Below, in pieces: positions 15,003 through 22,806 of a DNA stretch of 64,000 bases. The position numbers were made by a program, and so were the translations under genes. Origin of the DNA: Burkholderiaceae bacterium (GTDB lineage: Bacteria > Pseudomonadota > Gammaproteobacteria > Burkholderiales > Burkholderiaceae_E); NCBI GenBank assembly GCA_021463505.1, contig JAJTYR010000011.1:1-64000 (forward strand), given 5' to 3'. Numbering within the stretch: the stretch's first letter is position 1; every line of letters begins with the position of its first letter. The notes beneath the pieces are model-generated. The model was not told the DNA's origin, did not search any database, and saw nothing but the letters and a program-made list of their open reading frames with translations.

Positions 15003-15497
15003 CTCTATCGGATCGAGATCGACATCGCCGCCGTCCCCGATGCGCGCTGGAAGTCGCTCGCGAACGATTGCACCGGCTCCATCGCCTCCCTGGTGGACCT
15101 GCTGCAGGGCAAGCTGTCGAAGGCCGTGATGGAACGCATCTGCCAATCGAAGACCGGCCTGTTCCCCGCACCGAAAGACACCCAGCTCGACTGTTCCTGT
15201 CCGGACCGGGCGACCGTGTGCAAGCACGTTGCCGCCGTGCTCTATGGCGTGGGCGCGCGTCTGGACGAGCAACCGGAGTTGTTGTTCACGCTGCGCCGGG
15301 TGGATGCCGCTGACCTGGTGACGCAGGCCGCGGAATTGCCCATCAGGACGAAGAAGACGCCGCCCGGTGCCAGGGTGCTCGACGATGCCGGATTGGCCGA
15401 TGTCTTTGGCATCGAGATGGCGACTGCCGCCGAGGCACCGCCCGTCACGAAGAACAAGTCCGCGCCGCGCCGCTACAGGCGCAGCGCTCCCGCGTAA
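15003..15497 (+). pseudogene. SWIM zinc-finger protein, 5'-truncated
   Basis: Homology starts abruptly at LYRIEIDIAAVPDARW and continues through LVDLLQGKLSKAVMERICQ, FPAPKDTQLDC, the SWIM motif CSCPDRATVCKH (bases 15192-15227) and HVAAVLYGVGARLDEQPELL to a Lys/Arg-rich tail. Intact members I recall are about 250-280 residues with an N-terminal FWGKAWC domain; roughly the first 110 residues are absent here. No ATG, GTG or TTG suits the breakpoint; GTG 15093 would give a 134-residue product. The last 25 bases overlap the end of the convergent lipocalin-like gene. Confidence 0.75.
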
Positions 15498-16648
15498 CCG
15501 GTCAACTCGAGATAGCCGCGCCCGACCTCGCGGCCGGCTTCGAAGGCGCGCACGGCGCCTTCCCAGTAGATCGTGCCGGTGCTCGCACGTGTGTCGAGCT
15601 CCTGGTCGTCGAACAGCGGCTCCAGGTCGAGCGTGCGCGCACCGAGTTCGAGGCGCATCGCCACCGGGTAGCGCGCGCCGGTGCGCGGCGAGGTCCAGTG
15701 GCGCGCCGGCACGAAGCGCACGGCGGGATCGTCTCCGGCGATTGCAACGCCGTCGGCGGTGCTCCAGCGCGCATACGACCAGGCGAGGCCACCGTTGCGC
15801 AACCGGATCCGGAACGCCACCAGCGCCGAGCCATCGTCCAGGTTCAGTCCGGTCCAGTCCCAGCCGTTGGCCGCTGCGTCGAGGATCTCGCTGGACCACT
15901 CATGGTCGAGCCAGGCAACGCCTTCGACGGCGGTGTGCGCGCCGTCGATGCCGATGACACCGGTGGTGCGCAGCTGCGGGCGACTGTAGTAGTGGCTGGC
16001 CTGCGGCCCGAGTGGCCCCTTGCGCGAGAAGCCCGCATCGCCTTGCAGCACGGGCGGTGCGTGGGCGGCGGCGTCGAGTTCGAGCGTAAAGCGCCGGTCG
16101 TCGATGCGCGCGTGGTAGCGGTCGGCCTCATCGCGCGCGAGCGACCAGCCGTCGATGGCCAGTGCGGTGTCGTCGCCCGAGGCGCCCGCCAGCCCGAAGC
16201 CGGCGCGAGCGGCGCGCTGCGCGTGCACGAGGCGGCCGTGTTCGGGCAAGGCCAGCGCGGCGTGCGCGAGCAGCAACTGCGTGGGCGCGAAGCGACTCGG
16301 GTTGGCCGCGTCGTGGCGGGTGCGCGAGCGGAAGAACGTCACCTGCACGCCCAGCGGCTGGCCGCGCCGGTCGCCGTCGAGGCGGCGCAGCCAGCCGGTG
16401 AGGTACCACCACTCCGTGCGAAACGGCGGATGCGCGCCGTGGTCGCGCGGAAACTTCAGCGGCTCGCCGCGTACGACCGGCCGATAGAAGGCCTCTCCGG
16501 CAGCGAGGGCATCACCGGTAGCGAGAGCATCACCGGTAGCCGGGGCATCACCGGCGGCGGCCTCGGCACACGTGGCGCGCAGCCCGCAGACGGCGGCGGC
16601 CAGCGTTGCGAGCACCCGGCGGCGCATGTGACGGCAGGGTGGGTTCAC
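15473..16648 (-). CDS. Lipocalin-like exported protein, CrtC / AttH family
   Basis: About 391 residues with a signal peptide (MRRRVLATLAAAVCGLRA, cut near AEAA) and two lipocalin-like beta domains of the carotenoid 1,2-hydratase/AttH type. Signature stretches are FPRDHGAHPPFRTEWWYLTG, FFRSRTRHD, GLAWLDHEWSS-type VEGVAWLDHEWSSEILDAAA and GWDWTGLNLDDGSALVAF. It is encoded after an ABC ATPase and an FtsX-like permease in the order seen in AttEFGH-type operons, where it acts as the exported partner; the biochemical role is unknown. GTG 16648 is preferred: it overlaps the permease stop (GTGA) and has GGAGG four bases upstream. ATG 16627 is the alternative. Bases 16509-16562 are an in-frame tandem repeat just after the signal peptide. 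Confidence 0.8.
   Translation of the reverse strand: MNPPCRHMRRRVLATLAAAVCGLRATCAEAAAGDAPATGDALATGDALAAGEAFYRPVVRGEPLKFPRDHGAHPPFRTEWWYLTGWLRRLDGDRRGQPLGVQVTFFRSRTRHDAANPSRFAPTQLLLAHAALALPEHGRLVHAQRAARAGFGLAGASGDDTALAIDGWSLARDEADRYHARIDDRRFTLELDAAAHAPPVLQGDAGFSRKGPLGPQASHYYSRPQLRTTGVIGIDGAHTAVEGVAWLDHEWSSEILDAAANGWDWTGLNLDDGSALVAFRIRLRNGGLAWSYARWSTADGVAIAGDDPAVRFVPARHWTSPRTGARYPVAMRLELGARTLDLEPLFDDQELDTRASTGTIYWEGAVRAFEAGREVGRGYLELTGYAGALRL
16509..16562. repeat. Three tandem 18-bp units in the lipocalin-like gene
   Basis: Units at 16509-16526, 16527-16544 and 16545-16562 share GCATCACCGG and differ at a few 3' positions. In the coding (minus) strand each unit encodes a GDA(L/P)ATG-like hexapeptide, so copy change keeps the frame and only lengthens the mature N-terminal linker. 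Confidence 0.8.
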
Positions 16649-19239
16649 CAGTCCTCCCGCAACGCCCGCACCGGCGCTGCGGACATGGCCGAGCGTGCGG
16701 CGAGCAAGGCCGCGCCCACACCCAGCGCGAGCAGCGCGAGGCCGGCCGCGACGAGCAGGCCGATCGGCCAGGACAGGTCCATGGTCCAGTGAAATGACTG
16801 CGGGTTCACGCGATGGACGAGCACCATGGCGATGATCGCGCCGAGCACCGTGCCCCACGCGGCGGCGATGCCGGTCTGCAGCGCCGCTTCGGTGGCGAAC
16901 AGTCGCGCGACCTCGCGCCGGCGCAATCCGAGGTGGCGCAGCACGCCGAACTCGCGCACCCGCGCCAACCCCTCGGCAGTCCAGGCCGAGGCGGCGCCGA
17001 ACAGTGCGACGACGATGGCGATCGCCTCGAGCGCGTAGGTGACCGCGAAACTGCGATCGAAGATGCCCAGCGACCGTGCGCGCAGTTCGCCGCTTGCGCG
17101 CAATTCGAGTCCGGCGATGTCCGACAGCGCAACGCGCAGGGCGGCGATCGCCGCGGCGGGCGTGATCGATGCGTCGAACCACAACGCGGCGTCGCTGGTC
17201 GTGGCGTCGCCGGTGAGCGCGCGATAGTCGCCCGCATCGAGCGCCACCGCGCCGTGCTGGCGCGCGTAGTCGCGCCAGATCGCGGCGACGAAGAAGCGCT
17301 GTGCCGGCGCTGTTCCCGGCAGCGGCAACGTGACGAGACTGCCCGGGGCCCATCCGTAGAGGTCGGCTGCGGCTTCGCTCGCGTACACCGGGAGCGCGCC
17401 CGGTGGCGCGGCCCGCACCTCGCCGGTGATCGCCAGCCGCCGTTGCGGATGCCGCGGGTCGATCGGGCGCGCCACCAGTATCAGTGGCGGGCGCGATGGA
17501 TCGAGCGTGAGCGCCAGGCTGCGCGAGAACTCGGCGCGCGCCACGCCCGGAGCGTGTGCGAGACGCTCGCGCAATGCGGGATCGATGGCGCCCGTCGCTG
17601 CTCCGGAGGCGATCCGCGCATAGGCGTCGGCCGGAAGCACCGCGCCCAGCCAGCGGTCGACCGAGTCGCGAAAGCTCGACACCATGATGGCCATCGCTCC
17701 GGCCAGTGCAACGCTTGCGACGATGCCCGACATCGCCGCCGAGGCGCTTGCGGGCGCGCCGCGCAGCCGCTGCGCGGCCAGCCATGCGATCGGCCCGGCG
17801 GCGCGCAACGAGGCCAGCAGCGCGAGACCGCGCGCGCTTGCCGACACCACGCGCGGCACCAGCGCGATGCCGCCGGCAAGCCATGCAGCGATCGTGGCGT
17901 ACGCGGACCAGGGTAATCCGTCGAGGGGCGGCAGCGCGAGTGCCGCCGCGCCGAACAGGAAGCAGCCGAGTGGCCAGGCCCACGCGGCTGCACTGCGGCG
18001 CCCGCGCAGCGTCTCCTCGACGCTGCCGGCGCGCAATGCGCGCGCGCCCGGTGTGCGACTCACGGCCAGAGCCGGCGCCAGTGCACCGAGCAGCGCGGTG
18101 CCCAGGCCCGCAGTGGCGAACGCGAGCAATGCCGACGCATCGAGCGCAAGGGCAGGCCGGCTGCCCGCGAAGTAGCCGCCACCCAGGTCGCCACCGACCC
18201 ACGCGAGCAGCGCGCCGGCCAGCGCGATGCCGGCCAGCGTGCCCAGCGCCGCGCCTGCCGTGCCCAGCAGCAGTGCCGGTCCGAGCACGTGCGCGAGCAG
18301 CCACCGGGGGCGTGCGCCGAGCACGCCGAGAAGCGCCAGTTCGCGCTGCTGGCGCGCCACGCCCAGCGCCAGCGTCGCGTGGACGATGTAGCCACCGGTG
18401 AGCAAGGCCACCAGCGCCAGCATCCCCAGGTTCACGCGATAGGCGCGCGACAGGTTGGACATGCGCTGCCGGCTCGCATCGGGTGCGCTCCAGACGACGT
18501 CGGCGGGCAGCATCGCCTGCCAGCGTGCGCGGATGCGCGTCACGTCGCTGTCCTCGGGAAAGCGCAGGTCGAGGCGCGAGAGCCGGCCGAGCCAGCCCAG
18601 GCGCCACTGCATCGCACCCAGGTCCATGACCGCCAGCTGCTGGCCGGCCGCGACGCGCGGCAGCGTGCCGGCGATGCGCAGTGCCACCGTGCGTGTGCCG
18701 GCGCGCAGTCGCAGGGTGCCGCCCTCGGACAGCTTCAGCGCCGCCAGCGCCGCGTTCGACAGGAACACGGTGTCGTCGGCGAACAGCGGCGAGGCCGCGC
18801 CCGGCTGTTCGCCGGCAGCGGCCGACGGCAGCAGTGCCGGTGTCACCCCGGCGGCGCGAAACGCGTCCAGGCCGATCACCTGCAGGGTCTCGCCCGGTCG
18901 GTCGGCGAGCGCGAAGACCGCGTCGATCACCGGGCTCACCGATGCGCCGCTCGCGTCCGCAGCCAGCCGTGGATAGAGTTGCTCGTCGAAGCTGCCGGCG
19001 CGTGCACGCAGCTGCGCCTGTGCGTCGCCGTTCACCGTGGACATCGCCGTTGCGAACTCCTCGAGCGCCGAGCGGTTCACCAGGTGGATCGCCAGGGCGA
19101 GTGCCACGCCGACTGCAATCGCGACGACCGCGGTCAGCGCGCGCCCGGGCTGCGTGCGAACCTGGACACGCCACAGCCAGGCGAGCAGCGCCAGGCGGCC
19201 ATCGGCGGCGCGTGCGCATGCCGGCGCGAGTGTGCTCAC
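16645..19239 (-). CDS. ABC transporter permease, FtsX/MacB-like, fused double permease
   Basis: 864 residues. N-terminal membrane span (ALTAVVAIAVGVALALAIHL), a large periplasmic domain to ~265, and a first FtsX core with three or four spans (~265-420). A middle group of spans lies at ~430-520, followed by a second periplasmic domain and a C-terminal FtsX core (~710-864) with VREFGVLRHLGLRRREVARL. Such ~800-residue permeases act as lipoprotein or lipid extrusion or export partners (LolC/AttFG type) rather than importers. The GTG start at 19239 overlaps the ATPase stop, and the stop overlaps the lipocalin gene start, so all three are probably co-translated. Confidence 0.88.
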   Translation of the reverse strand: MSTLAPACARAADGRLALLAWLWRVQVRTQPGRALTAVVAIAVGVALALAIHLVNRSALEEFATAMSTVNGDAQAQLRARAGSFDEQLYPRLAADASGASVSPVIDAVFALADRPGETLQVIGLDAFRAAGVTPALLPSAAAGEQPGAASPLFADDTVFLSNAALAALKLSEGGTLRLRAGTRTVALRIAGTLPRVAAGQQLAVMDLGAMQWRLGWLGRLSRLDLRFPEDSDVTRIRARWQAMLPADVVWSAPDASRQRMSNLSRAYRVNLGMLALVALLTGGYIVHATLALGVARQQRELALLGVLGARPRWLLAHVLGPALLLGTAGAALGTLAGIALAGALLAWVGGDLGGGYFAGSRPALALDASALLAFATAGLGTALLGALAPALAVSRTPGARALRAGSVEETLRGRRSAAAWAWPLGCFLFGAAALALPPLDGLPWSAYATIAAWLAGGIALVPRVVSASARGLALLASLRAAGPIAWLAAQRLRGAPASASAAMSGIVASVALAGAMAIMVSSFRDSVDRWLGAVLPADAYARIASGAATGAIDPALRERLAHAPGVARAEFSRSLALTLDPSRPPLILVARPIDPRHPQRRLAITGEVRAAPPGALPVYASEAAADLYGWAPGSLVTLPLPGTAPAQRFFVAAIWRDYARQHGAVALDAGDYRALTGDATTSDAALWFDASITPAAAIAALRVALSDIAGLELRASGELRARSLGIFDRSFAVTYALEAIAIVVALFGAASAWTAEGLARVREFGVLRHLGLRRREVARLFATEAALQTGIAAAWGTVLGAIIAMVLVHRVNPQSFHWTMDLSWPIGLLVAAGLALLALGVGAALLAARSAMSAAPVRALREDW

Positions 19240-19928
19240 GGCTGCGTCCCGTCGTCGGCGCGCAGGCGGCCCGCAACGAGCCGCAGCCTGCGGTGAGCGA
19301 TCGCAGCCGCCTGTGCCGAGTGCGTGACCAGCACCAGCGCGGCGCCGCTCGACTCGACGGTCGTGGCGATCAGCGCCAACGCCTGTGCGGCGGTGGCCGG
19401 GTCGAGGTTGCCGGTGGGTTCGTCGGCGAGCACCAGTGGCGGTGCGTGCACCAGCGCGCGCGCGAGCGCCACGCGCTGCTGCTCGCCGCCGGAGAGTTCG
19501 CGCGGCCAGGCGTTCGCGCGCGAGGCCAGCCCGACGCGCGCAAGCATCGCGGCGGCCCGTTCGAGGGCAGCGCCGGGGGCGGCGCCCTTCAACAGCAGCG
19601 GCACGGCGACGTTGCGCGCCGCATCGAGGTGCGGCAGCAGGTGGAACGCCTGGAACACGAAGCCGATCGCGTCGCGCCGGAACGCTGCGGCGTCGTCGGC
19701 GCCGAGCGCCGAGACCTCGGTGCCTGCGACGCGCACCGTTCCGGCATCGACGGGCTCGAGGCCGGCGACGAGGTTCAACAACGTCGACTTCCCGCTGCCC
19801 GACTCGCCGCGCAGCGCGACGCGCTCGCCGCGCGCCACGCCCAGGTCGACGCCGTCGAGCACTGCGTGCCCGCCGAACGCCTTGCGTACGCCGATCAGTT
19901 CCAGCGCGGGAGTCGTCGGTGCGGGCAA
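19236..19928 (-). CDS. ABC transporter ATP-binding protein, LolD/MacB-like
   Basis: 230-residue ATPase: Walker [13 protein letters not shown] at ~42-53, Q-loop in GFVFQAFHLLPHLDAARNV (the VFQxFxLLP pattern is typical of the LolD/MacB/FtsE class), signature LSGGEQQRVALARAL, Walker B LVLADEPTGNLD, and H-loop VLVTHSAQ. It pairs with the FtsX-like permease through a 4-base overlap. The start ATG is 25 bases after the selD stop, so it may be part of the fabI-senB-selD transcript. Confidence 0.93.
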   Translation of the reverse strand: MPAPTTPALELIGVRKAFGGHAVLDGVDLGVARGERVALRGESGSGKSTLLNLVAGLEPVDAGTVRVAGTEVSALGADDAAAFRRDAIGFVFQAFHLLPHLDAARNVAVPLLLKGAAPGAALERAAAMLARVGLASRANAWPRELSGGEQQRVALARALVHAPPLVLADEPTGNLDPATAAQALALIATTVESSGAALVLVTHSAQAAAIAHRRLRLVAGRLRADDGTQP

Positions 19929-19953: not shown

Positions 19954-21015
19954 TCAGGCAGTCACTTCGATGCCGGGCTCGCCGACGGCGAGTTCGCCGA
20001 TCTCGCAGGCGGCATCGAAGCCATCGCGCCGGAACACCGCGAGCACATCGCCGACCGCCTCGGGCGCGCAGGCCACCAGCAGGCCCCCCGATGTCTGCGG
20101 ATCGGTCAGCAGCGTGCGCGGGTGCGCGTCGATGCCGGCACCCAGCCGCACTTCGTGCCCATAGCCGTCCCAGTTGCGCTGCGAGGCGCCGGTGGCAAAG
20201 CCGCGCGCGATCAATGCGTCGACGCCGGCGATCCGCGGCACCGAAGCTGCCGAAATGCGCGCCGCCAGGCGCGCGCCGCGGCACAGCTCGAGCAGGTGCC
20301 CGAGCAGTCCGAAGCCGGTGACGTCGGTCAGCGCGTGCACCGCGTCGAGTTTCGCCAGTGCCGGGCCGGGCGTGTTGAGGCGGGTCGTGCTGGCGAGCAT
20401 CGCGGCGTAGCCTTCGGCCGACAGTTCGCCCTTCTTCAGCGCCGCCGACAGCACGCCCACGCCGAGCGGCTTGCCGAGCACCAGCCGGTCGCCCGGGCAC
20501 GCGCCGGTGTTGCGCCTGATCCGGTCAGGATGGCCGAGGCCGAGCACCACCAGCCCGTAGATCGGCTCGACCGAATCGATGGTGTGTCCTCCCGCCACCG
20601 GAATGCCCGCTGCGGCGCACACCGACTCGCCGCCTTCGAGGATGCGGCGAATCACGTCGAGCGGCAGCCGGTCGATCGGCATCGCCACGAGCGCGAGCGC
20701 CATGATCGGCGTGCCGCCCATTGCGTAGACGTCGGAGATCGCGTTGGTGGCGGCGATGCGCCCGAAATCGAACGGATCGTCGACGATCGGCATGAAGAAA
20801 TCGGTGGTCGCGATCAGCGCCTGCTCGTCGTTGAGCCGATAGACCGCGGCGTCGTCGGCACTTTCGATGCCCACCAGCAGCTGCGGTGGCACCGGAAGGC
20901 GCGCGGCGCCCCGCAGGATTTCGGAGAGCACTCCCGGAGCGATCTTGCAGCCGCAGCCGCCGCCGTGCGAAAACGAGGTCAGTCGCGGCGCCTGCGCGAT
21001 CTCGGGTGCGTTCAT
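19954..21015 (-). CDS. selD: Selenophosphate synthetase (SelD; SenC when in a sen cluster)
   Basis: Makes selenophosphate from selenide and ATP. 353 residues. The catalytic loop GGGCGCKIAPGVL at ~19-31 uses Cys, not selenocysteine, at the active position, with the catalytic Lys following. Other conserved parts are DDAAVYRLNDEQALIATTDF, FGRIAATNAISDVYAMGG, GGHTIDSVEPIYGL, DVTGFGLLGH and DPQTSGGLL. The start ATG overlaps the stop of the upstream glycosyltransferase by four bases, the arrangement expected when selenophosphate is fed to a dedicated enzyme. No selA, selB or mnmH is in the window. Confidence 0.95.
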   Translation of the reverse strand: MNAPEIAQAPRLTSFSHGGGCGCKIAPGVLSEILRGAARLPVPPQLLVGIESADDAAVYRLNDEQALIATTDFFMPIVDDPFDFGRIAATNAISDVYAMGGTPIMALALVAMPIDRLPLDVIRRILEGGESVCAAAGIPVAGGHTIDSVEPIYGLVVLGLGHPDRIRRNTGACPGDRLVLGKPLGVGVLSAALKKGELSAEGYAAMLASTTRLNTPGPALAKLDAVHALTDVTGFGLLGHLLELCRGARLAARISAASVPRIAGVDALIARGFATGASQRNWDGYGHEVRLGAGIDAHPRTLLTDPQTSGGLLVACAPEAVGDVLAVFRRDGFDAACEIGELAVGEPGIEVTA

Positions 21016-22013
21016 GGCTGGATGTTCCCGGAAGTGGGGGCGGGCGCACCGCCGGCGCGCCCGCGGGCAAGCAGATTATGCGCCAGCGCGAGCACGGCGG
21101 CCGCCTCGCGCTGCGGCGTGAAGCGCCACGCGTGCCGCGCGCAGTACGCGCGCAGCAGTTCGAGGAAGCCCGGTTCGTCGCGGCAGCGCCGGATCAGCGT
21201 GGCCAGCGCAGCGTCGTCGCCGGTCGGGAACAGGCCCGGGTAGTCGGCGCCGAGCAGCCCGATCGAGCCGCCGATGCGCGAGGCCAGCACCGGCACGCCG
21301 GCGGTCACCGCCTCGATCAGCACGTTGGCGCCGCCTTCGATCAGCGACGGCAGCAACAGCAGCCGGCCGCGGCGGATCAGCGCGCGCGTGGCGGCGTGCG
21401 CGAGCGGGCCGCGCAGTTCGATGCGCGCATCGACGTGCGCCGCTTCGCGCATCTGTCGCGCGAGCGCTTCGTCGTGCGCCCCGCCGACGTGGATCAACCG
21501 CAGGCGCCGCGAGGGCGCGTCGTCGAGCCGCGCCAGCGCGCGCACCGCGGTGAGCGGATCCTTCTCCCCCCGCAGGTGGCCGACCAGCAGCAGGTCGAAG
21601 GTTCGCCGTCGCGGCGTGCCCGGCGCGAGCGCCGGTGCCGATTGCTCGATGACCGTTGCGTGCGCGCGCAGCGCGGCAGGCAGTTCGTCCAGGCCTTGCG
21701 TCTGCAGCACCACGAGCGGCCGGGCGAGCGCGAGCGAGCGCTGCGCGGCGCGATCGTGGCGGATGTCGCGATACAGATCGGTGCCGGTGAGCACCAGCGC
21801 CACCGGACGCCCGCTGGCGGCGAAGGCGGCGATCATCGCTGCCGAGCGCCGCGCGTGCAGCGCGATCATCGCGTCGTCGGGTTCGCCGTTCCAGTCGCGC
21901 GCGATGCGCACGCGATGGCGGGTGCGCAGGAACCGTGCCCAGCGGCGCGCGGTCTGCCAGTTCCCGGTGTTGGCGTCGGCCAGCGCCGGCGAGACGATCA
22001 GGATCCGGCCGAT
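21012..22013 (-). CDS. senB: Selenosugar synthase SenB-like glycosyltransferase (TIGR04348 type)
   Basis: GT4-type glycosyltransferase; SenB of selenoneine synthesis couples selenophosphate with a UDP-sugar. Recognised by the N-terminus ILIVSPALADANTGNWQTAR, then MIALHARRSA, VLVLTGTDLYRDI-type ALVLTGTDLYRDIRHD, VVLQTQGLDELP, VGHLRGEKDPLTAVRAL and the nucleotide-sugar site SLIEGGANVLIEAVTAGVPV. The conserved N-terminus begins at about 22007, but no ATG, GTG or TTG precedes it after the fabI stop. The first normal start is GTG 21911, which would remove about 30 conserved residues. GGAGGT at 22025-22030 points to an unusual start (ATC 22013 or ACG 22019). The coordinate given is therefore the conserved extent, not a proven start. 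Confidence 0.78.
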   Translation of the reverse strand: MGRILIVSPALADANTGNWQTARRWARFLRTRHRVRIARDWNGEPDDAMIALHARRSAAMIAAFAASGRPVALVLTGTDLYRDIRHDRAAQRSLALARPLVVLQTQGLDELPAALRAHATVIEQSAPALAPGTPRRRTFDLLLVGHLRGEKDPLTAVRALARLDDAPSRRLRLIHVGGAHDEALARQMREAAHVDARIELRGPLAHAATRALIRRGRLLLLPSLIEGGANVLIEAVTAGVPVLASRIGGSIGLLGADYPGLFPTGDDAALATLIRRCRDEPGFLELLRAYCARHAWRFTPQREAAAVLALAHNLLARGRAGGAPAPTSGNIQP

Positions 22014-22020
22014 CGGCGTA

Positions 22021-22806
22021 CTAGACCTCCATGCCGCCGACGACCTGGCTGAATCCGGCGTCGACGTAGGTGATCTCCGCGGTGATGCCGGCGGCGAGAT
22101 CGGACAGCAGGAACGCGGCGGCGTTGCCGACGTCCTCGATCGTGACGTTGCGTCGCAGCGGCGCGTGACGGCCGACGACGTCGAGAATGCGCGAGAAATC
22201 CTTGATGCCGCTGGCCGCCAGCGTGCGGATCGGTCCGGCCGAGATGCCGTTCACGCGAATGCCCTGCGGGCCGAGGTCGCTCGCCAGGTAGCGCACCGCC
22301 GCCTCGAGGCTCGCCTTGGCCAGCCCCATCATGTTGTAGTGCGGCAGCACGCGCACCGCGCCGAGGTAGCTCAGCGTGAGCATCGCGCCGGCGCGGCCGC
22401 GCATCATCGGCAGCGCCGCCTTTGCCAGCGCCACCAGACTGTACGCGGAGACGTCGTGCGACACCCTGAACGACTCGCGGTCCGCACCGTCCAGGAACGC
22501 TCCGGCGATCGCCTCGCGCGGCGCGAATGCGATCGCGTGCACCAGTCCGTCCAGCGCGTCCCAGCGTTCGCGCAGCGCCGCGAACAGCGCGTCGATCTGC
22601 GCGTCTTCGGCGACGTCGCAGGGGAACACCAGCGACGAGCCGAACCCGGCGGCCATCTCGGCGACGCGGCCCTGGAAGCGCTCGTTCTGATAGGTGAAGG
22701 CGAGTTCGGCGCCCTGGTCTCGGCAGGCCCGCGCGATGCCCCAGGCGATCGAACGGTTCGACAGCAGACCGGTGATCAGGATGCGCTTGCCGGCAAGGAA
22801 TCCCAT
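22021..22806 (-). CDS. fabI: Enoyl-ACP reductase (NADH) FabI
   Basis: Last reductive step of each fatty-acid elongation round, NADH dependent. 261 residues of the short-chain dehydrogenase fold: [20 protein letters not shown] nucleotide-binding loop (the FabI-specific TGLxSxRSIAxG), [11 protein letters not shown], and the catalytic group [20 protein letters not shown] with Tyr-x6-Lys spacing. It is the first gene of the leftward operon. Its stop lies seven bases before the SenB-like reading frame, and the SD for that gene is inside the last fabI codons. Divergent from yejA with 27 bases between the starts. Confidence 0.95.
22025..22030 (-). promoter_or_regulatory. Strong ribosome-binding site before the SenB-like gene
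   Basis: GGAGGT on the minus strand, inside the last codons of fabI. It lies 5 bases before ACG 22019-22017, 8 before CCG and 11 before ATC 22013-22011, all in the SenB frame. No ATG, GTG or TTG lies at a suitable distance in that frame. It decides that translation should begin here rather than at GTG 21911. Confidence 0.55.

Follow-up and report, generated by a model that had tools for sequence, protein, structure and literature searches.

It is asked here which selenium compound is made from a pair of overlapping genes for a selenosugar synthase (SenB) and a selenophosphate synthetase (SelD) when senA, the third gene of the selenoneine pathway, is not found beside them. The pair lies in a stretch of 64,000 nucleotides from a Burkholderiaceae bacterium, referred to as the window. 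A sequence-only reading had noted that the window lacks senA, which is correct for the 64 kb, and had proposed that the final product is another selenometabolite, perhaps handled by the neighboring transporter. The features of the locus are as follows.

15473..16639, minus strand, AttH-like CrtC/Lipocalin_9 protein, start uncertain (PF07143 181.7 bits, PF17186 124.9 bits)
16645..19239, minus strand, ABC permease with two FtsX stretches (PF02687 82.8 bits)
19236..19928, minus strand, ABC transporter ATPase, LolD-like, 25 nt after selD (PF00005 117 bits)
19954..21015, minus strand, selD (= senC), selenophosphate synthetase (NF002098, TIGR00476)
21012..21015, minus strand, ATGA shared by the senB stop and the selD start
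21012..22013 (true start probably 22019 or 22013), minus strand, senB, selenosugar synthase (TIGR04348 380.5 bits)
22021..22806, minus strand, fabI, enoyl-ACP reductase, immediately upstream of senB (NF005422 461.7 bits, above 440)
22025..22030, minus strand, GGAGGT in the 3' end of fabI, Shine-Dalgarno-like, with a putative function

The senB product was compared with the equivalog profile TIGR04348 and scored 380.5 bits against a cut-off of 300, its residues 4-311 covering positions 1-308 of the 310 in the profile. When it was used as a query against solved structures, the best matches were the SenB/Se-glycosyltransferase entries of the PDB (E 3e-65 to 6e-64), and the next glycosyltransferase structure followed at E 5e-9. 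The profile search thus places the glycosyltransferase inside the SenB family, as had been proposed. It is 48% identical to SenB of Variovorax paradoxus (VpSenB) over 309 aligned residues. PMC10891094 assigns K158 of VpSenB as catalytic, N20, T23, and E231 to donor binding, and N20, H58, R61, T83, T85, and R155 to the selenophosphate pocket, and all of these are identical in the window SenB. Fourteen of the 16 VpSenB residues checked (PMC10891094) are retained in total (N20, T23, H58, R61, T83, T85, D86, Q131, R155, K158, L209, T214, E231, and E239). The two that differ are donor-pocket residues, V157, which is replaced by E, and H235, which is replaced by N, so that the donor motif EGGAHV reads EGGANV. 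In a sample of 78 SenB-like proteins of the order, position 157 was E in 78/78, and position 235 was N in 53, H in 17, L in 7, and F in 1. K158, R155, E231, and E239 were present in 78/78, and N20 and T23 in all 76 proteins that cover the site; H58 was replaced by N in 3 proteins and R61 by K in 10. A SenB search of the contig database returned three loci, two from Methylobacterium at 44% identity and one from Rhodobacteraceae at 39%, which are too few for an analysis of synteny.

The selD product exceeded both equivalog cut-offs (NF002098, 535.6 bits, cut-off 299; TIGR00476, 428.9 bits, cut-off 125) and had been named correctly. The names SenB and SelD/SenC are supported by scores above the family cut-offs, by matches to solved structures, and by catalytic residues that are conserved. 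The four-base overlap of the two genes, also described before, is the ATGA at 21012-21015, and the translation of senB and selD may be coupled through it. A profile search of the whole genome detected this SelD as a single copy over the family cut-off. The same genome encodes SelA (562.6 bits) and SelB (457.3 bits, cut-off 242) together with tRNA-Sec on contig C40, and MnmH (344.5 bits) on contig C38. Since these components are present, SelD would probably supply SelA for selenocysteine and MnmH for selenouridine as well, and one SelD probably serves three selenium pathways, including that of selenoneine.

The profile search of the genome with NF041186, the SenA equivalog, detected one SenA, encoded on the minus strand of another contig (C24:28498-29670; 499.4 bits, cut-off 420). 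The three sen genes are therefore not co-located; senB-selD is on C13 and senA on C24. The C24 protein scored 498.6 bits with the SenA model and 218.9 bits with the EgtB model (cut-off 360). Its best solved relatives were 8ryz and 8k5i (E about 2e-128), followed by OvsA (5e-40). C24 SenA is thus closer to the SenA structures than to OvsA and EgtB. It contains PLWELGHIGWFQ and HEDMHHEA, which we take to be the EgtB-type GH and HxxxH motifs with the iron-binding histidines. EgtD is encoded on contig C34 (TIGR03438, 361.5 bits, cut-off 290.9). No EgtB was seen in the genome, in which the sole other match to the SenA profile was a 72-bit protein on C89; this candidate was rejected as a PvdO/FGE-like protein that fits PvdO best and falls under all cut-offs. 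Three EgtBs of relatives that were scanned gave 473-562 bits with the EgtB model (cut-off 360) and 334-378 bits with the SenA model, which indicates that an EgtB in this genome would have been detected. Since none was seen, SenA is the only visible taker of the hercynine from EgtD. The assembly is 97.7% complete in 120 contigs, with a reported contamination of 0.34%.

It is thus very probable that the window pair is the SenB-SenC half of the ordinary selenoneine pathway, that its third gene lies elsewhere, and that the product is selenoneine. SelD would convert selenide and ATP to selenophosphate, which would displace UDP from a UDP-sugar on SenB to give the selenosugar. SenA from C24 would then join the selenosugar to hercynine made by EgtD from C34, and the adduct would collapse to selenoneine. 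Since SenA was found elsewhere in the genome, the genes of the window can be explained without a new selenium compound, and the earlier step from a missing senA to another product fails on the SenA of C24 and the EgtD of C34. The sequence-only reading was prepared to yield to a co-regulated senA elsewhere in the genome; the genomic half of this has been found on C24 at 499.4 bits.

The 5' end of senB is unusual. It had been placed at 22013, where the codon is ATC and not a canonical start. The first ATG, GTG, or TTG in the frame occurs only at 21911. Since a start at 21911 would remove the substrate-binding N-terminus of SenB, senB likely starts at a non-canonical codon, ACG at 22019 or ATC at 22013. 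The Shine-Dalgarno-like GGAGGT at 22025..22030 lies 5 nt before the ACG and 11 nt before the ATC. If senB were annotated from 21911, 34-36 residues including N20 and T23 would be dropped. To count start codons among the 78 SenB frames, we used the 75 with the N-terminal motif; two others are truncated at contig ends and one has a divergent motif. Three of the 75 lack ATG, GTG, and TTG in the 40 upstream codons, namely the window senB and those of its genus mates G102 and G179, and the remaining 72/72 have one of these codons there. The sites without a canonical start are at 22013-22030 of the window, near 9130 of L058, and near 10105 of L059. In G102 and G179, the frames are intact, and a CTG behind AAGGA overlaps the fabI stop (CTGA). 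A FabI-SenB fusion by programmed frameshift was also considered. The offset between the fabI and senB frames is +1 in the window's genome (G000) and +2 in G102 and G179, which argues against a conserved frameshift, and a non-AUG start fits better. Translation of senB would then begin by termination-reinitiation, with a near-cognate start codon coupled to the stop of fabI.

The gene content around the pair fits the earlier description of senB-selD behind fabI and ahead of an AttEFGH-type exporter, a term that we take to cover the ABC ATPase, the FtsX permease, and the CrtC/Lipocalin_9 protein. The ATPase scored 203.1 bits with TIGR02211, below the cut-off of 307.75, and is possibly on the same transcript as selD. 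The order of a divergent ABC transporter with an SBP_bac_5 binding protein, fabI, and senB was found in G102 and G179 and in four genomes of a second family, f17 (G017, G215, G064, and G108). In a fifth f17 genome, G184, fabI-senB lies at the start of its contig, so that the fabI-senB adjacency extends over G102, G179, and five f17 genomes. selD follows senB in G102, G179, G064, G108, and G184, and the fabI-senB-selD block is common to two families.

The proposal that the exporter handles the selenium product is weak. The genus mates G102 and G179 have a putative selenate importer between selD and the exporter (TIGR04553 about 382 bits, cut-off 250, with PhnC-/PhnE-like partners; L058:11332-15422 and L059:3907-7373). 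In G240, of the same family, the order is fabI, senA, senB, egtD, and exporter, and SelD is encoded elsewhere within a 786-codon open frame. The exporter is thus near senB in G102, G179, and G240 with or without the importer, selD, senA, or egtD between them, and it was rejected as the transporter of the product. It appears to be a lasting neighbor within this family, and no link to selenium was found in the loci compared. The profile search of the window's genome gave no match to the TIGR04553 importer. In G102, an egtD-like gene for a histidine-specific methyltransferase (PF10017) is directly followed by senA.

Phylogenetic trees were built from 77 rows of SenB, one short row being dropped, and 73 rows of SenA. 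The window SenB grouped with those of G102 and G179 (100/93) and then with that of G240 (99/92), all of its own family, and SenB of G210, also of this family, stood apart. C24 SenA grouped with SenAs of G181, from another family, and G210 (100/99), and the SenAs of the two genus mates grouped with that of G135 (100/97). Nine relatives formed an outlying clade in the SenA tree, and the three of them that were scanned are EgtB over the cut-off. Forcing the three SenAs of the genus together cost 118.7 log units (p-AU 1.8e-5), and forcing the window SenB together with the SenBs of G181 and G210 cost 137.0 log units (p-AU 5.5e-6), both constrained groups having been chosen after the trees were seen. 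The pathway is thus a mosaic; C24 SenA is of another lineage than the SenA of the genus mates and did not evolve with the window SenB. The SenB-SelD pair behind fabI is vertically inherited.

The senA site on C24 is flanked on one side by an Iso_dh gene (isocitrate/isopropylmalate dehydrogenase family) and on the other by a short conserved frame before clpS-clpA. Measured between matched ends, G179 has a gap of about 160 bp at this site and G240 one of 115 bp. In the window's genome it holds about 3 kb with SenA and a Pyr_redox_2 oxidoreductase (L013:8066-11300). Different inserts occupy the site in G102 and G210, and the one in G102 includes a Pyr_redox_2 gene as well. Most simply, this variable site would have received SenA in a separate acquisition, and the incoming gene either replaced a native copy or persisted after such a copy was lost. 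The loci compared for the site were L161, L162, L163, and L164 together with L013. The divergent neighbor of senA (L013:9610-11076) resembles the selenoprotein subtype of type III sulfide:quinone reductase (84.5 bits, cut-off 525); the first part of this frame is antisense to senA and probably outside the gene.

We surveyed 250 genomes of the order, including that of the window. A SenB-like protein was present at E<=1e-40 in 78, and 70 of these exceeded the TIGR04348 cut-off. A SenA/EgtB-like protein was present at E<=1e-70 in 111 genomes, 55 of them over the SenA cut-off. In the division that follows, at least 418 bits was accepted as over the cut-off; this admitted two borderline rows and left the split counts unchanged. 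Among the 70 genomes with an over-cut-off SenB, 45 have a SenA-family gene within 10 kb, seven of which are clearly under the SenA cut-off and were counted by adjacency. An over-cut-off SenA is on another contig in nine genomes and on the same contig but far from senB in three, which gives 12/70 with a split pathway (more than 10 kb apart or on another contig), the window's genome included. In the two genus mates, senA and senB are 50,136 and 47,124 bases apart, which agrees with a selenoneine pathway whose senA is distant from senB. G210, one of the cases with another contig, is probably an assembly break, because the senA N-terminus and senB are both at one end of its contig C32. One further genome has, elsewhere, only a relative below the cut-off, and 12 have none. 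Conversely, an over-cut-off SenA without SenB was found in four genomes.

SelD is present in 12/12 of the over-cut-off SenB genomes without SenA/EgtB at E<=1e-70 (loci L065-L070 and L072-L077), and selD is outside the examined stretch around senB in 10/12. Four of the SenA-less genomes are in one or two contigs (G043, G069, G182, and G243), and the SenBs of the SenA-less genomes keep K158, R155, E231, and E239. In f17, fabI also precedes the genes for more distant SenB-like proteins (173-229 bits, below the cut-off; L078-L082). Seven f17 genomes have such a protein; five of them have no SenA match, and SelD is present in four of these five, the exception being G215. The block fabI-senB-selD without any SenA match recurs in G064, G108, and G184. 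It is these relatives with SenB and SelD, and not the window, that carry the case for another selenometabolite. They may still encode a SenA that is too divergent for E<=1e-70 or was lost in assembly gaps.

The points counted against selenoneine as the product in this genome are the location of senA and senB on different contigs, the SenA of another lineage, the changes at V157 and H235, the lack of a canonical start in senB, the 97.7% completeness in 120 contigs, and the importer that was not found. The 12 of 70 SenB genomes that have SelD and no SenA/EgtB, and the SenA-less blocks of G064, G108, and G184, would fit an alternative in which SenB and SelD feed another end product, such as a selenosugar in free or conjugated form that the exporter carries, and the distant SenA is otherwise employed. 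We regard this as very unlikely, since SenA and EgtD are encoded in this genome and no EgtB was seen, and since the importer parts selD from the exporter in the genus mates and the exporter of G240 has egtD and senB next to it but no selD at that locus. A broader form of the idea takes SenB-SelD as a two-gene module with the selenosugar itself as its product, which would be an unknown selenometabolite in the SenA-less relatives, including G064, G108, and G184; part of the selenosugar here would have the same fate beside a horizontally acquired SenA. Such a module is unlikely but deserves some weight.

Selenoneine would also not be formed if senB were decayed or untranslated and only selD still mattered, for selenocysteine and selenouridine. 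The lack of a canonical start within 40 upstream codons, the different lineage of SenA, and the TIGR04553 importer that was not found in the genome would agree with decay. However, the frame is open with the catalytic residues kept, and a SenA over the cut-off is present. The genus mates also lack a canonical start, yet their frames are intact and a CTG overlaps the fabI stop, which points to a tolerated non-AUG start. The loss of senB is highly improbable. It is extremely unlikely that C24 is a binning contaminant and that the true genome has no SenA, even though the assembly is fragmented into 120 contigs and the SenA is like that of G210 and unlike those of the genus mates. ClpA, encoded about 2.3 kb from SenA on C24, is 92% identical to that of G179, 91% to those of G102 and G210, 90% to that of G240, G210 and G240 being of another genus of the family, and 77% to that of G181, and it fits the family but alone cannot separate its genera. 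The tetranucleotide correlation with the window was 0.992-0.994 for C24 stretches and 0.93 for a G210 stretch; SenA alone (1.2 kb) gave 0.917. Besides the reported contamination of 0.34%, the genes of C24 are in the order seen at the clp loci of G102, G179, G210, and G240.

The selenoneine pathway proposed here can be compared with the senA-senB-senC cluster of V. paradoxus described by Kayrouz 2022, cited here through PMC9814287, PMC10702425, and PMC10891094; according to PMC9814287, the study looked for genes that overlap selD. As in V. paradoxus, all three enzymes are present, each over its curated family cut-off, and senB and selD overlap. In contrast to that cluster, senB lies behind fabI, and senA is on another contig and belongs to a lineage that differs from the SenA lineage of the genus mates. 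With the Se-glycosyltransferases VpSenB, RsSenB, and CbSenB (PMC10891094; PDB 8jjq, 8k5u, and 8fbx), the window SenB shares the family, K158, N20/T23/E231, and the selenophosphate pocket; it differs from VpSenB in the 48% identity, EGGANV for EGGAHV, E for V157, and its likely non-canonical start. The G240 locus (L062), from another genus of the same family, resembles the window in the order of fabI, senB, and the ABC exporter, but has senA between fabI and senB, egtD after senB, and SelD elsewhere in the 786-codon frame. According to PMC10891094, SenB-like genes occur mainly in beta-proteobacteria, a group that this genome would fit, and a 2026 review (PMC13188914), in the portion available, names selenoneine once and SenB not at all. 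Literature searches found no publication describing a senB locus that is split or lacks SenA, nor one on the senB start codon; Kayrouz 2022, known through citing papers, may mention such loci.

For the window, a false lead is removed, since senA, though not in these 64 kb, is in the genome. The lineage conflict of SenA, the senB without a canonical start, and the SenA-less relatives outrank the original claim of a missing senA. Splits are not rare, and cluster-based searches for selenoneine producers will miss some of them. The SenA-less genomes with SenB and SelD form a concrete list for seeking a second selenometabolite. Conserved partner genes around the SenA-less senB were looked for and rejected, because the neighbors recur mainly within families and the ones that were scanned have housekeeping roles (thymidylate synthase, dihydrofolate reductase, MotA, and MotB). 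An exception is an HlyD-type adaptor scanned after senB in G088. G088 and G201 (L068:5984-7695 and L073) both have senB, a short frame, and the adaptor, and then come frames that group with genes of ABC transporters.
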